IMG/VR virus record: IMGVR_UViG_3300027777_000134
Coordinates: 1 to 25,869 of that record
Length of the DNA: 25,869 nt
Direction: 5' to 3' (one strand)
Origin: a virus
Every line of letters begins with the position of its first letter. Position 1 is the stretch's first letter. Under the pieces are notes generated by a model. The model was not told the DNA's origin. It saw only the letters and a list, made by a program, of their open reading frames with translations, and did not search any database. Made by a program: the position numbers and the translations under genes. This document shows positions 1,196 to 21,976 of the stretch, piece after piece.

Positions 1196-2724
1196 TGAAA
1201 ACGCCGATTCTGGGATCGGCATACGTTGCTCGGAGCATCAATGCTGCCGACAACAGAATGGTAAATTTGTTTCCGGAGATTATCCCCGAAGGCGGTAAAG
1301 AACCGGCATTTCTAAATCGAGCGCCGGGATTAACAAAACTAGCCACCGTTGGTACTGGTCCCATTCGTGGGCTGTGGACGTTTAACGGTGTTGGGTACGT
1401 TGTCAGCGGGTTAGAACTTTACAAGATTACTAGCAACTACGTTGCTACATTATTGGGTACGGTGTCCGGCACGGGGCCTGTTAGCATGGCTGACAACGGT
1501 ACACAGTTGTTTATCGCCTGTGGTGGCCCAAGCTACATCTACAACTCGCTGACCAACGTATTTGTACAAATCACAGACCCAGACTTTCCTGGCGCTTTGA
1601 CTGTTGGGTATCTGGATGGTTACTTTGTATTTATTGAGCCAAATAGTCAAAAAGTCTGGGTAACTGCGCTTTTAGAAGGTACGTCGGTTGACCCGCTAGA
1701 TTTTGCCAGTGCGGAAGGTTCTCCAGATAATTTGGTTGGCATGATTGTTGACCACCGCGAAGTGTGGTTGTATGGAACCAACTCGGTTGAAGTTTGGTAT
1801 GACTCGGGTAACGCAGACTTTCCGTTGCAACGCATCCAAGGTGCGTATAACGAGATTGGTTGTGCGGCAACGTTCTCGGTAGCCAAGTTAGACAACGGTT
1901 TGTTTTGGTTGGGCGCCGACGCTCGCGGTCAAGGTATCGTTTACCGCGCCAATGGCTATACCGGCCAGCGGGTAAGTACTCACGCAATTGAATACGCGAT
2001 TGCACAATATCCAATTATCAGCGATGCGATAGCGTACACCTATCAGCAAGAAGGTCACGCCTTTTACGTTCTAACATTCCCATCGGCTAATGCAACTTGG
2101 GTGTACGACGTATCTACACAAGCGTGGCATGAACGAGCGACGTTTTCTAACGGTTTGTTTTTGCGCCATCGCAGCAACTGCCAAATGGCGTTTAACAGCG
2201 AGATTGTTGTTGGCGATTTTGCTAATGGCAATTTGTACGCTTTTGATTTAGACATCTATGCTGACAACGGTGCGCCACAAAAATGGTTGCGATCTTGGCG
2301 GGCGCTGCCAACGGGGCAAAACAACCTAACTCGTACGGCGCACCATAGCTTACAACTGGATTGTCAAAGCGGCGTTGGTATCAATAACAGCAGCGGTACA
2401 GATCCAACGTATTTGTTAACAGAATCCGGTTTGTTTATTATTACCGAGAGCGGTGACTATTTGGTCAGCGTCGCTGAAGGTACGCCTACGGTTGGATCTG
2501 ACCCGCAAGTAATGTTGCGATGGTCGGACGATGGCGGTCACACTTGGTCTAACGAGCATTGGGCAACGCTTGGCAAAATTGGCATTTACCAACAGCGTGT
2601 GTTCTGGCGGCGTTTGGGTATGACGCTCAAACTGCGTGATCGAGTGTATGAGTTATCTGGCACAGACCCCGTAAAGATTGCCATTATGGGGGCAGAACTG
2701 CACGCAAGCGGGACAAGTTCTTAA
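1195..2724 (+). CDS. P22 gp10-like packaged DNA stabilisation / tail hub protein
   Basis: A 509-residue protein matching the phage stabilisation family (P22 gp10, 472 residues), which forms the tail hub that plugs the portal channel and retains the packaged DNA. Family-like stretches are the N-terminus (residues 1-30, 'NAADNRMVNLFPE'), 'RAPGLTKLATVGTGPIRGLW' at 42-61 and 'HREVWLYGTNSVEVWYDSG' at 187-205. The body is beta-rich, consistent with the propeller-like fold of gp10. It is translationally coupled to both neighbours by one-base overlaps (TGATG at its start, TAATG at its end). The order gp4-like, gp10-like, fibre reproduces the P22 tail-machine cluster. Confidence 0.9.
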   Translation: MKTPILGSAYVARSINAADNRMVNLFPEIIPEGGKEPAFLNRAPGLTKLATVGTGPIRGLWTFNGVGYVVSGLELYKITSNYVATLLGTVSGTGPVSMADNGTQLFIACGGPSYIYNSLTNVFVQITDPDFPGALTVGYLDGYFVFIEPNSQKVWVTALLEGTSVDPLDFASAEGSPDNLVGMIVDHREVWLYGTNSVEVWYDSGNADFPLQRIQGAYNEIGCAATFSVAKLDNGLFWLGADARGQGIVYRANGYTGQRVSTHAIEYAIAQYPIISDAIAYTYQQEGHAFYVLTFPSANATWVYDVSTQAWHERATFSNGLFLRHRSNCQMAFNSEIVVGDFANGNLYAFDLDIYADNGAPQKWLRSWRALPTGQNNLTRTAHHSLQLDCQSGVGINNSSGTDPTYLLTESGLFIITESGDYLVSVAEGTPTVGSDPQVMLRWSDDGGHTWSNEHWATLGKIGIYQQRVFWRRLGMTLKLRDRVYELSGTDPVKIAIMGAELHASGTSS

Positions 2725-3614
2725 TGCCAGTCATCAATAACATCACCCAGATACCCGCACCTCGGGTTGATTTTATTGACTCGCGCACCGGATTGATGTC
2801 GCGCGAGTGGTACAGGTTTTTTTTGAACCTGTTTACGCTGACCGGTTCTGGTTCAAACGATACGGCAGTTGAATACTTAAACTACGTTCCGCTGCCGCAA
2901 CCATCTGGCTCAAACATCAACGATTTTTCAATTGGTCAGCCAGTCCCAGACAGCGGCGTCATTCAAGTCAATACAGGAACAGGGCTAATTGGTGGCCCAA
3001 TCGTTACGACCGGAACGATTGCGATAGCAAACACTTCAGTCACGCCTGGTAGCTACACAGCAGCAAACATTACGGTCAACGCCCAAGGGCAGTTAACTGC
3101 CGCCAGCAACGGATCGTCTGGAAGTGTTACGCGAGTAAATACCGGCACGGGTCTAACTGGTGGGCCGATAACAACGTCTGGCACGGTCAGTATTGATAAC
3201 ACGGTTGTGACGTTGACTGGCATACAGACGCTAACTAGTAAGACTATTACGGGGTTAGCAACCGGCTCCACGGTTAACGACAGTAGCGGCAATCCTTATG
3301 GGTTTGGTTTCCTTACCATGCCTCAATCGAGCAACATCAGCGGAACGTTGGTTTTGTCAGATAGCGCCAAACATCTTTATTTAACTGGCAACGTTACGGT
3401 GCCGCCCAATAGTAGTGTGGCGTTTGAGATTGGTACGGTTGTAAGCGTCATCAGCAACGCAACCGCGTTGGTTATTCAAGCTGGATCGGGTGTTACTCTT
3501 AAGTTAGCCAACTCAACGTCTACAGGTGACAGATCTGTCGCGTCTAATGGTGTCGCTACCATGATCAAGGTTGCAATCGACACTTGGTACGTTTTTGGTC
3601 TGGGTGTGACATGA
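2724..3614 (+). CDS. Tail fibre / tail needle-region protein with GTGLTGG repeats
   Basis: 296 residues. The N-terminal 45 residues ('APRVDFIDSRTGLMSREWY' followed by 'RFFLNLFTLTG') form a short conserved-looking module that recurs at the start of many phage fibre proteins and probably anchors it to the virion. Then come two copies of a repeat (residues 82-101 and 138-157, core GTGLxGGPIxTxGT) and a 'GSYTAANITVNAQGQLTAAS' segment (109-128), all typical of trimeric fibre shafts. The C-terminal 100 residues are beta-rich, possibly the receptor-binding tip. It follows gp10-like directly, the position of the P22 tail needle gp26. I see no coiled coil like that of gp26, so a fibre is the better call. 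Confidence 0.82.
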   Translation: MPVINNITQIPAPRVDFIDSRTGLMSREWYRFFLNLFTLTGSGSNDTAVEYLNYVPLPQPSGSNINDFSIGQPVPDSGVIQVNTGTGLIGGPIVTTGTIAIANTSVTPGSYTAANITVNAQGQLTAASNGSSGSVTRVNTGTGLTGGPITTSGTVSIDNTVVTLTGIQTLTSKTITGLATGSTVNDSSGNPYGFGFLTMPQSSNISGTLVLSDSAKHLYLTGNVTVPPNSSVAFEIGTVVSVISNATALVIQAGSGVTLKLANSTSTGDRSVASNGVATMIKVAIDTWYVFGLGVT

Positions 3615-4660
3615 GCGGTTTTCTTGGAATGTTCAATTATGGGTATGGGGCAGTACCACCTACTTCATCGCAATACATCGCGTATTCTGGATCGGCCACG
3701 GTTGGCGCAACGGTAGGTGTTTTTCCTTGGGACTCTACAACTGGTTTTGGAACTGTTTATAGCAATCCATCGGCCATAACCTCTATCACCGTACAAGAAA
3801 TTTCGTTTGTACGGGACAATTCTTTAATTTCTGCATCTTTTTCACTATCGCCATACATTTACGCGTGGCCTTGGTCCGCTTCTGGGTACGGAACCAGATA
3901 CTCCAATCCATCCAGTCTTTTAAGCCCAACTGGTACGCCAGTTGGATTTACTTGGACAAACGCGATAGATGCAATTCTTACATTTAACCAATCGTCTCCG
4001 TCTTATCCGCAAGCATGGGCTTGGAGTTCTGGGTTTGGAACCAAATACACCAACGGAAGCGTCATTACCAACAGCGGTGCAACTTACGGAATTTCTCTAA
4101 ACGGCGACAACACGTTGGTGGCGTTTAATTTTAGCGCAACCCCGTATGTTGCTTTGTATCCTTGGTCATCTTCATCTGGGTTTGGTACGCGTTACGCTAA
4201 TCCTTCAACTTCGTACACCGGCAACGCTATACGTCAAACGATTTCGTTTAACAAAGTGACAAACGATTTGGCGCTTGGCGCTGGGCTTAACCCGTACGTT
4301 ACTGCTTACGCAGTTAGTAGTTCTGGGTTTGGTTCAAAATACGCTAACCCAACGCTTGATGGTGTTATAAAAAACACTGTGGATTTCAACCCAGACGGGA
4401 CATATTTGGCAACTGGAACCGGCGCTGGGACACCTATTTTTGTGTATCCTTGGAGTTCTGGGTTTGGCACTAGAATTTTTAGCCCAACGTCTTCTAGCGC
4501 CGTTACAGTGAGCTGGTCAAGCACAGGCACTGAAATCTCTAAAAACGGTGGGCCGATTAACGCTTGGCCTTGGAGCGCAGGGTTTGGTACGCAATACACC
4601 AACCCATCTATTAGTGCAACTACTCCCACTTGTGTGTCTTTTTCTAACCAGTCAAGATGA
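3611..4660 (+). CDS. Seven-repeat beta-propeller protein, putative tail tip or receptor-binding
   Basis: 349 residues containing seven copies of a roughly 40-49 residue repeat whose core is aWPWSsGFGTkYaNPs; the GFGT-like tetrads start at residues 45, 92, 141, 190, 239, 284 and 324. Each unit has a further segment resembling WD40 strands ('VDFNPDGTYLATG' at 257-269). Seven such blades predict a closed propeller, with the N-terminal strands (about 21-38) completing the blade begun by the C-terminus. Start chosen at ATG 3611, which overlaps the fibre stop as ATGA; an in-frame TTG at 3584 lies inside the fibre gene and is unlikely. Placed among tail genes, it probably binds a receptor or caps the fibre; no enzyme motif is visible. 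Function is inference. Confidence 0.85.
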   Translation: MSGFLGMFNYGYGAVPPTSSQYIAYSGSATVGATVGVFPWDSTTGFGTVYSNPSAITSITVQEISFVRDNSLISASFSLSPYIYAWPWSASGYGTRYSNPSSLLSPTGTPVGFTWTNAIDAILTFNQSSPSYPQAWAWSSGFGTKYTNGSVITNSGATYGISLNGDNTLVAFNFSATPYVALYPWSSSSGFGTRYANPSTSYTGNAIRQTISFNKVTNDLALGAGLNPYVTAYAVSSSGFGSKYANPTLDGVIKNTVDFNPDGTYLATGTGAGTPIFVYPWSSGFGTRIFSPTSSSAVTVSWSSTGTEISKNGGPINAWPWSAGFGTQYTNPSISATTPTCVSFSNQSR

Positions 4661-5022
4661 TTACTAACGACGAAAAACTAGCTTCGGCAGTCATGAACGC
4701 CTATTACCGCGAAATGGAAATCTACGGGTATCAGGTGAATATTGACAATTACTCTGCTATGCTAATGGCGTTGCCTTTGGATGATTGGCCCCAGAATTGG
4801 GTGGCATTTAAGGGCGTCAAGATTGACGAACTGCCGCATTCGTTGTCAGATGACGATGCTCAATCAATTAGCGATTACCAGTACCGCGACCGGCTGCGTT
4901 CGTTGATCAGGACCGAACGGGCAGAGCAAAACAAGACTATTCGAATCAGGGACGTTCTTAAGACTCAGATTGGCGACAACTACGACGCGTTGGTTTTGGC
5001 GTATAAGGCAGCACAACCATGA
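4657..5022 (+). CDS. Uncharacterised small protein of the tail-gene cluster
   Basis: 121 residues, mostly predicted helical, with charged C-terminal helices ('YQYRDRLRSLIRTERAEQNK' about 84-103). No membrane segment, signal peptide or recognised motif. The ATGA overlaps at both ends show it is coupled to the propeller gene upstream and a beta-rich gene downstream. From size, helical character and position just after putative receptor-binding genes it could be a fibre assembly chaperone, but nothing in the sequence proves it. Confidence 0.75.
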   Translation: MITNDEKLASAVMNAYYREMEIYGYQVNIDNYSAMLMALPLDDWPQNWVAFKGVKIDELPHSLSDDDAQSISDYQYRDRLRSLIRTERAEQNKTIRIRDVLKTQIGDNYDALVLAYKAAQP

Positions 5023-5354
5023 CTGTTACCGTAAAATTATTGATCCCAGCAAAGCTGGCTGAGCCAAGCCAAACTACCCAATACACTGCCGTTGGCGTCA
5101 CGACGCTGATTGATAAGTTTACCGCGACCAACTTTAGCGGGTCAGCGGCGACCATTAGCGTCAACTTGGTCACGGTTGCAGACTCGGCTGGCAATCAGAA
5201 TTTGATCGTCAAAGCCAAGACACTTCAACCGTCAGAGACGTATACGTTCCCCGAAATCATTGGTTCGGCGTTAGCGCCTGGTGGGTTTATCAGCACCATC
5301 GCAGGGACGGCATCGGCGATCAACATCCGGTCTAACGGGCGGGAGATTACATAA
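5019..5354 (+). CDS. Small beta-rich virion-associated protein
   Basis: 111 residues with alternating hydrophobic and Thr/Ser residues ('VSVNL', 'TVTVKLLIPAKL', 'PSETYTFPEIIGSALAPGGF'), suggesting a compact beta-sandwich. No signal peptide, cysteines or catalytic motif. Coupled by ATGA to the upstream gene and by TAATG to the ejection-type gene, so it is co-translated with virion components. Probably a minor structural protein; I do not recognise the family with certainty. Confidence 0.75.
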   Translation: MTVTVKLLIPAKLAEPSQTTQYTAVGVTTLIDKFTATNFSGSAATISVNLVTVADSAGNQNLIVKAKTLQPSETYTFPEIIGSALAPGGFISTIAGTASAINIRSNGREIT

Positions 5355-20806: not shown

Positions 20807-21976
20807 ATGACCGATCCAGCAGAAAAAATTGAAAAATGGGCGATTGAAAAACTGATCCCCTACGCGAGAAATGCCAGGACGCACTCGGATGAGCAGGTAG
20901 GGCAGATTGCTGCTTCTATCCGCGAGTGGGGGTGGACTACCCCGGTGTTGGTAGATGAGGATGGGGGAATCATTGCTGGCCACGGCAGGACGATGGCAGC
21001 GAAGCGTTTAGGGATGCGTGAAGTCCCCGTGATGGTGGCTAGAGGGTGGAGCGATGCGAAGAAGCGAGCCTACGTTCTAGCCGATAACAAACTGGCCCTA
21101 AACGCTGGATGGGACAACGAGATGCTGGCCCTTGAACTCAAGGAGTTGGGCGAGACAGGGTTTGACCTAGATTTGACTGGTTTTTCCCTTGATGAGATCA
21201 ATGGGCTCACGCCGTTAGAGGTTGAACCTGGGCTAACGGATGAGGATGCCGTTCCAGAGGCCCCAGAAGAGCCTGTAACGCGATTGGGCGACGTTTGGAT
21301 ACTAGGACAGCACCGATTGATGTGCGGCGATTCTACGTCGATTGACGCGGTTGAGAAGCTGATGGATGGGCAGAAAGCTGAGATGGTGTTTACGGACCCG
21401 CCTTATGGGATGAACGCGGTAACAAAATCGTCTGTTCTGAAGAAAAATTACGGGCAAGACATTCTTGGAGATGACAACACAGACGCAGCGAAAGATTCGT
21501 TTTTGCTGGCCTTTGGCCTTTATCCAGACGCAAACCATGTCTGGTGGGGGGCAAATTATTACGGCTCCGCACTTCCAGACAGCGAATGTTGGATTGTTTG
21601 GGACAAAAACAACGGGCAGTCAGATCAAACGGATTGCGAATTGGCGTGGACAAACTTTAGAAGTGTTGTGCGACAGTTCACAATGGCATCAGAAAAGAAA
21701 AACAGAGTTCATCCAACTCAAAAGCCAATATCATTAATCGAATGGGTTTTTAACAGATTTAAAGTCTCATCAAATTTTGTACTTGATTTGTTTGGTGGAA
21801 GCGGCAGCACATTGATCGGATGCGAGAAAATGGGGCGCAAAGCTTTTGTGATGGAGCTTGACCCGAAGTATTGCGATGTCATAATCAAACGATGGGAGGA
21901 ATACACTGGAAAAAATGCAGTCAACTCAATTTGTGGTAGGGAATTCAAGACGTTACAGAAGCAAGTTCATGAATAA
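20807..21976 (+). CDS. ParB-domain / beta-class DNA methyltransferase fusion
   Basis: 389 residues. Residues 10-100 form a ParB/Srx-type domain with 'IIAGHGRTMAAKRLG' (55-69). The rest is an amino-methyltransferase: catalytic DPPY (197-200), 'RVHPTQKPISL' (300-310) and the AdoMet-binding FGGSGS (329-334). With the catalytic motif first it is of the beta class, making N6-adenine or N4-cytosine. Fusions of this kind are common in phages and act as orphan methyltransferases, often protecting phage DNA from restriction. GAGGGG lies about 11 bases before the ATG. No restriction endonuclease is nearby. The target sequence cannot be read from the protein. Confidence 0.94.
   Translation: MTDPAEKIEKWAIEKLIPYARNARTHSDEQVGQIAASIREWGWTTPVLVDEDGGIIAGHGRTMAAKRLGMREVPVMVARGWSDAKKRAYVLADNKLALNAGWDNEMLALELKELGETGFDLDLTGFSLDEINGLTPLEVEPGLTDEDAVPEAPEEPVTRLGDVWILGQHRLMCGDSTSIDAVEKLMDGQKAEMVFTDPPYGMNAVTKSSVLKKNYGQDILGDDNTDAAKDSFLLAFGLYPDANHVWWGANYYGSALPDSECWIVWDKNNGQSDQTDCELAWTNFRSVVRQFTMASEKKNRVHPTQKPISLIEWVFNRFKVSSNFVLDLFGGSGSTLIGCEKMGRKAFVMELDPKYCDVIIKRWEEYTGKNAVNSICGREFKTLQKQVHE

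Follow-up and report, generated by a model that had tools for sequence, protein, structure and literature searches.

Host recognition by a separate protein at the tip of a tail fibre has been described for gp38 of T2-type phages, S16 and PP01, in which a conserved scaffold carries variable loops that determine host specificity (PMC12892980). Other receptor-binding proteins contain a beta-propeller. When Gp45 of phage phi11 was solved, few receptor-binding proteins with propeller domains were known, namely PRD1 P2 and phiKZ gp131C (PMC4901313). The propellers of Gp45 and P2 are five-bladed, that of P2 being distorted, and the Gp45 propeller serves as the platform of a trimeric stem protein (PMC4901313). 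The phiKZ protein gp131C (PDB 4GBF; cited in PMC4901313) is a seven-bladed virion propeller and a suspected receptor-binding domain, forming part of a jumbo myophage baseplate protein.

The protein discussed here is encoded next to a short tail fibre in a stretch of viral DNA of 25,869 bases, referred to as the window. No sequence match to phi11 Gp45 or PRD1 P2 was found for it, and phiKZ gp131C is not among its listed sequence or fold matches. A weak profile match was obtained to another phiKZ chain, PHIKZ130 (E=0.41).

The propeller gene and its surroundings

The gene lies at positions 3611-4660 on the plus strand, with an ATG at 3611 and a stop codon at 4658-4660, and its product has 349 aa. 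A sequence-only reading of this DNA had described a seven-copy repeat, and seven blade motifs of the form G[FY]G[TS]x[YI]x[NS][PG] (typically GFGTxYxNP) were indeed located, 40-49 residues apart. They begin at residues 45, 92, 141, 190, 239, 284 and 324, giving spacings of 47, 49, 49, 49, 45 and 40 residues. In nucleotide terms, they are 27 nt each within 3743-4606, with starts at 3743, 3884, 4031, 4178, 4325, 4460 and 4580. The motif count was 0 in 2000 shuffles of the protein. Since the ORF is undamaged in dozens of homologous contigs and under purifying selection (for example, dN 0.09 against dS 0.92 between the window and its relative L001), it is, on this comparative evidence, a real gene.

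Both ends of the protein are distinctive. The N-terminal tail (residues 1-21, positions 3611-3673) reads MSGFLGMFNYGYG... followed by a Pro-rich linker and is conserved in the close clade, with M1, S2, G3, F4 and G6 invariant across 24 relatives. This tail is a candidate attachment peptide; in the structural model it is disordered, with pLDDT below 50 at residues 1-14 only. An N-terminal M..LG peptide occurs in 59 of 130 family members against a background of 5%, but most of these come from one clade, so the peptide is not used as an argument outside that clade. At the other end, the terminus VSFSNQSR is kept throughout the close clade.

Upstream, on the same strand, are a P22 gp4-like head-tail adaptor (Ad3; 479-1195; phrog_12985, phrog_637), a P22 gp10-like tail nozzle or head closure protein (Hc3; 1195-2724; phrog_578, E=7e-141), which was used as the conserved reference gene in comparisons, and a short tail fibre of 296 aa (2724-3614) with GTGLTGGPI shaft repeats and a weak match to the tail fibre family phrog_38058. 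The last 105 residues of this fibre (192-296, positions 3297-3611) form a C-terminal knob domain. A gene for a DNA-ejection protein follows shortly downstream of the propeller and its companion, and endolysin, holin, helicase, terminase and portal genes are found elsewhere in the window. The sequence-only reading had placed the propeller beside a tail-fibre gene in a short-tailed phage, and both points hold: the fibre stop overlaps the propeller start as ATGA, an arrangement seen in all 61 close relatives, and the adaptor, nozzle and ejection genes, with portal and terminase, are those of such a phage. Within the window, no further gene could be recognised as encoding a fibre or spike. No capsid gene was seen in it either, so it is a fragment, and another receptor binder could lie beyond its ends.

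Immediately downstream is a companion gene (4657-5022, plus strand) for a small protein of 121 aa with the core YQxNIDNY ... EQxK. Such a protein stands beside the propeller in nearly all loci (152 of 166), and several of the remaining loci carry either a diverged YQxNIDNY look-alike (aligned, unscored) or tandem propellers that precede the small protein. The protein of the window has no Pfam, PHROG, NCBIfam or PDB family and is probably helical. A further small protein of 111 aa (5019-5354, plus strand) follows. In remote loci, a Phage_tail_APC gene for tail-fibre assembly or a chaperone is often found two genes downstream of the propeller.

Several other features of these loci were recorded. 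Fibre shaft length varies among close relatives by whole GTGLTGGPI...ITVNAQGQLTAASNG units around a constant knob, giving fibres of 372 aa in L001, 260 aa in L005 and 246 aa in L006. In L005 and similar loci (11 loci), a cupin-looking protein of ~110-168 aa, encoded by the third gene downstream, occupies the place of the ejection gene. A sulfotransferase-looking gene separates the propeller from the small companion gene in another locus (L107:7035-7865). Within the window itself, positions 20807-21976 encode a ParB-like N-terminus joined to a DNA methyltransferase (phrog_620, phrog_498).

Predicted fold and family

An AlphaFold2 model built with 53 homologues, drawn from viral and genome contigs, reached a pLDDT of 87.2 and a pTM of 0.87 as a monomer. 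The protein is thereby confidently predicted to be a seven-bladed beta-propeller, a toroid of four-stranded blades. Its top structural matches in the PDB are the seven-bladed 6-phosphogluconolactonases 6nau and 1ri6 and WD40 domains, with TM-scores of ~0.7. The best matches in a library of structures predicted for viral proteins are 'WD40/YVTN' proteins of uncultured phages, a protein of Pseudomonas phage POR1 and one whose name refers to a coagulation factor 5/8 C-terminal domain. The model thus agrees with the closed seven-bladed toroid that had been proposed from the repeats. It also agrees with the idea that strands from the two termini complete one blade: strands 22-27 and 35-41 begin the chain, and the strand at residues 339-344 (positions 4625-4642), which finishes it, would join the N-terminal blade and so complete the toroid. 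Single-sequence AlphaFold2 failed, yielding a meaningless model with a pLDDT of 31, so support for the fold comes from the alignment. A model-independent check is provided by ORF length. Complete homologous ORFs come in two sizes, ~335-365 aa, in which there are seven main motifs, and ~680-700 aa, in which there are about fourteen, matching one or two full rings of seven blades.

Profile searches against propeller families, by which the sequence-only reading had hoped to corroborate the fold, gave no such result. Searches of Pfam, PHROGs and NCBIfam returned no significant family for the window propeller, and no Pfam family scored above its cut-off. The best Pfam match, the EML propeller, lies under its cut-off. 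By the WD40 family PF00400, the protein does not qualify as a member (E=0.14, 13.2 bits against a cut-off of 27), and it has no match to PF10282 Lactonase in the Pfam search. Likewise, a sequence search of the PDB gave weak WD40 matches only. Among remote relatives, MW202701 passes PF07676 PD40, and only CGphi29 passes the PF10282 cut-off.

The same reading had called a propeller in this position unusual, a judgement that does not survive the searches, as relatives are encoded in hundreds of environmental viral contigs (at least 586 and at least 572 viral stretches confirmed in two scans of viral contigs). A single scan of genome contigs found remote relatives only, in metagenome bins. The protein seems unusual only because annotated phage genomes almost lack its family, to which neither Pfam nor PHROGs nor NCBIfam assigns a functional name. 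In INPHARED, the window propeller has one clear relative, MW202701 (annotated 'wD40 repeat protein'), and a partial match to ZRG1 (E=3e-5); with a remote member as the query, Salicola phage CGphi29, Xanthomonas phage XacN1 and Pseudomonas phage POR1 were found. The family phrog_19311, which carries no functional annotation, covers the propellers of POR1, CGphi29, ZRG1 and MW202701, but not the window protein. A search of the open-access literature found no paper on the propeller family or the companion gene. Judged from these searches, the family is large, viral and almost unannotated.

Members differ in the age of their repeats. Blade-to-blade identity is mostly 72-82% in the single-propeller remote members examined, compared with 23% in the window protein, whose blades are, by this measure, old and diverged. 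A profile of the remote members matches WRAP-derived chains (7bie, E=8e-11). Two further loci, L154 and L151, encode family propellers whose N-terminal domain looks like Fn3. The L154 protein has a match to a PHROG of minor tail proteins, and in L154 a second propeller lies immediately behind the first.

Linkage to the fibre and divergence of the propeller

In two loci, the knob and the propeller are parts of one protein. The knob of L167, at residues 270-373, continues directly into a propeller that runs to the protein end, and that of L166, at residues 700-798 of 1140 aa, is likewise followed by a propeller. A knob profile from the close clade finds both fusions, with E-values of 2e-9 for L167 and 6e-10 for L166, provided that the HMMER bias filter is off, and a single BLASTP comparison of the window knob with L167 gave 36% identity (E=1e-7). 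A knob profile built partly from remote fibres and run with the filter off likewise matches both fused proteins and, at many remote loci, the last part of the fibre encoded ahead of the propeller. L166 was considered as a double-propeller protein and rejected as such, residues 700-798 being the knob. Immediately upstream of its fused fibre-propeller gene lies a putative GIY-YIG homing endonuclease gene (L166:2960-3580).

Two genome types are represented among the close relatives. In the first, adaptor and nozzle precede the fibre; in the second, adaptor-like and nozzle-sized genes follow it, an assignment made by sequence reading and gene size, not by profile. Between these two backbones, identity is 63-70% for the fibre C-terminus, 64-69% for the small protein and 45-54% for the propeller, while the fibre N-termini do not align. 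The 111-aa protein is conserved beside these genes in one backbone only. On these identities, the knob, the propeller and the small protein are a cassette common to both backbones.

Remote relatives show further arrangements. In POR1, the propeller gene overlaps the gene before it, which encodes a collagen-like fibre, by four bases, and in CGphi29 it lies inside what reads as a collar-like tail protein, two genes past the tape measure. Pseudomonas phage ZRG1 (L101:7161-8963) joins a tail-terminator-like domain (phrog_4204), a long Pro-Asp linker and a family propeller, and in XacN1 the propeller is found within a 2823-aa protein. These last two place the propeller in other contexts, which counts against a fibre-tip role.

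Within the first genome type, the propeller shares 48-57% identity in most genomes, compared with ~82-94% for the nozzle, fibre C-terminus and small protein. Divergent propeller alleles differ from the window gene with a dN of 0.38-0.50, whereas the nozzle, fibre and small-protein genes of those genomes give 0.04-0.15. By these measures, no other gene of the module has diverged nearly as far as the propeller, which shows accelerated modular diversification relative to its neighbours. Propeller dS is near or past saturation, which points to replacement by older alleles and not to fast point change alone. The propeller and nozzle trees conflict: the nozzle clade is rejected by the propeller data (p-AU 2e-140) and the propeller clades by the nozzle data (p-AU 8e-5 and 5e-5), the clades having been named after the trees were seen. 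Gene distances of the propeller correlate modestly with those of the small protein (r=0.60) and the nozzle (r=0.34), and these correlations are given little weight.

In propellers, the BC and DA loops share one face. When loop variability was placed on the model, these loops were more variable than the AB and CD loops (1.88 against 1.06 bits, p 5e-5), and the bias recurred inside each of two allele groups (p 0.0004 and 0.03). It was absent among distant relatives (p 0.12), so it characterises the close clade and does not come with the fold itself. Raised divergence in a tail gene and in surface loops is what one would expect of a receptor binder, without proving that the protein is one.

Proposed role and comparison with known systems

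Taken together, the knob fusions, the shared cassette, allele swapping and one-sided surface variability favour the role that the sequence-only reading had put forward, and the propeller is quite probably a fibre-tip adhesin, a putative receptor-binding protein. The fibre (2724-3614) would form a shaft ending in the knob, on which the separately encoded propeller would dock, probably through its conserved N-terminal peptide and/or the conserved bottom (AB/CD) face. The variable top face, made of BC and DA loops, would then bind the host-cell receptor, and the 121-aa YQxNIDNY protein probably acts as an assembly chaperone or adaptor dedicated to the tip.

Other roles were weighed, and each is less consistent with the data than a fibre-tip adhesin. 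The propeller could be a tail-borne carbohydrate-active or lactonase-like enzyme (a depolymerase), not a plain binder, given the 6-phosphogluconolactonases among its best fold matches, the lactonase profile match of CGphi29 and the use of propellers by phage endosialidases (PMC4901313). This appears unlikely, as invariant or near-invariant residues in 53 sequences are nearly all within the repeat motif, with no catalytic-like conserved polar set elsewhere, and the near-identical blades of many relatives (72-82% mutual identity) leave little room for one specialised active site.

Podovirus nozzles do contain propellers (PMC10386132; see also PMC6702177), and a structural cap or tail-tip plug without receptor contact, comparable to the nozzle propeller layers of P22 gp10 and T7 gp12, could be imagined here. 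However, the nozzle is a separate, highly conserved gene (phrog_578), and it is the propeller that is least conserved in the module, exchanged between genomes, fused to fibres and present in phages with other tail types, making a plug very improbable. The least credible of these roles is that of a transient fibre-assembly chaperone that leaves the virion, as T4 gp38 does (PMC12892980), with diversity arising from co-evolution with the fibre. The position of the gene directly behind the fibre gene would suit it, but the fibre C-terminus, to which such a chaperone would need to be fitted, is conserved (84-93%), unlike the variable propeller, the knob fusions in L166 and L167 argue for permanent attachment, and small candidate chaperones already adjoin the propeller.

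A broader and more tentative proposal, to which we give somewhat less than an even chance, is that knob, propeller and YQxNIDNY protein make up a self-contained host-recognition cassette, one of the receptor-binding systems that are common among environmental phages. In it, the propeller would be the reader that can be exchanged, and the small protein would be a dedicated chaperone or adaptor of a new kind. New variants would come from the swapping of whole genes and, where the blades of a member are nearly identical, also from single blades being amplified anew. For many environmental phages, no receptor-binding protein can be recognised, leaving their hosts and host range unreadable from the genome. 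With its clear fold, fixed gene neighbourhood and defined variable face, a family such as this would allow many viral contigs to be annotated at once, and it offers a concrete target for adsorption tests in the cultured relatives POR1, CGphi29 and ZRG1.

Among described systems, the near-identical blades of many viral members resemble those of WRAP, recently amplified WD40-type propellers (PMC9218822), although the bacterial ones are attached to STAND ATPases whereas the viral family consists of stand-alone genes beside tail fibres. The eBAP3 fibres of eCIS (PMC12923769) combine beta-propeller lectins with collagen shafts and recall the collagen-like fibre and propeller of POR1 (Orf75/Orf76), but they are single-chain fibres. 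Closest in position and logic is T2-type gp38, which has a different fold: gp38 is a poly-glycine-II sandwich on long tail fibres, whereas the protein described here, a putative tip adhesin, has a predicted propeller fold that sets it outside the gp38 type and belongs to a short-tailed phage.
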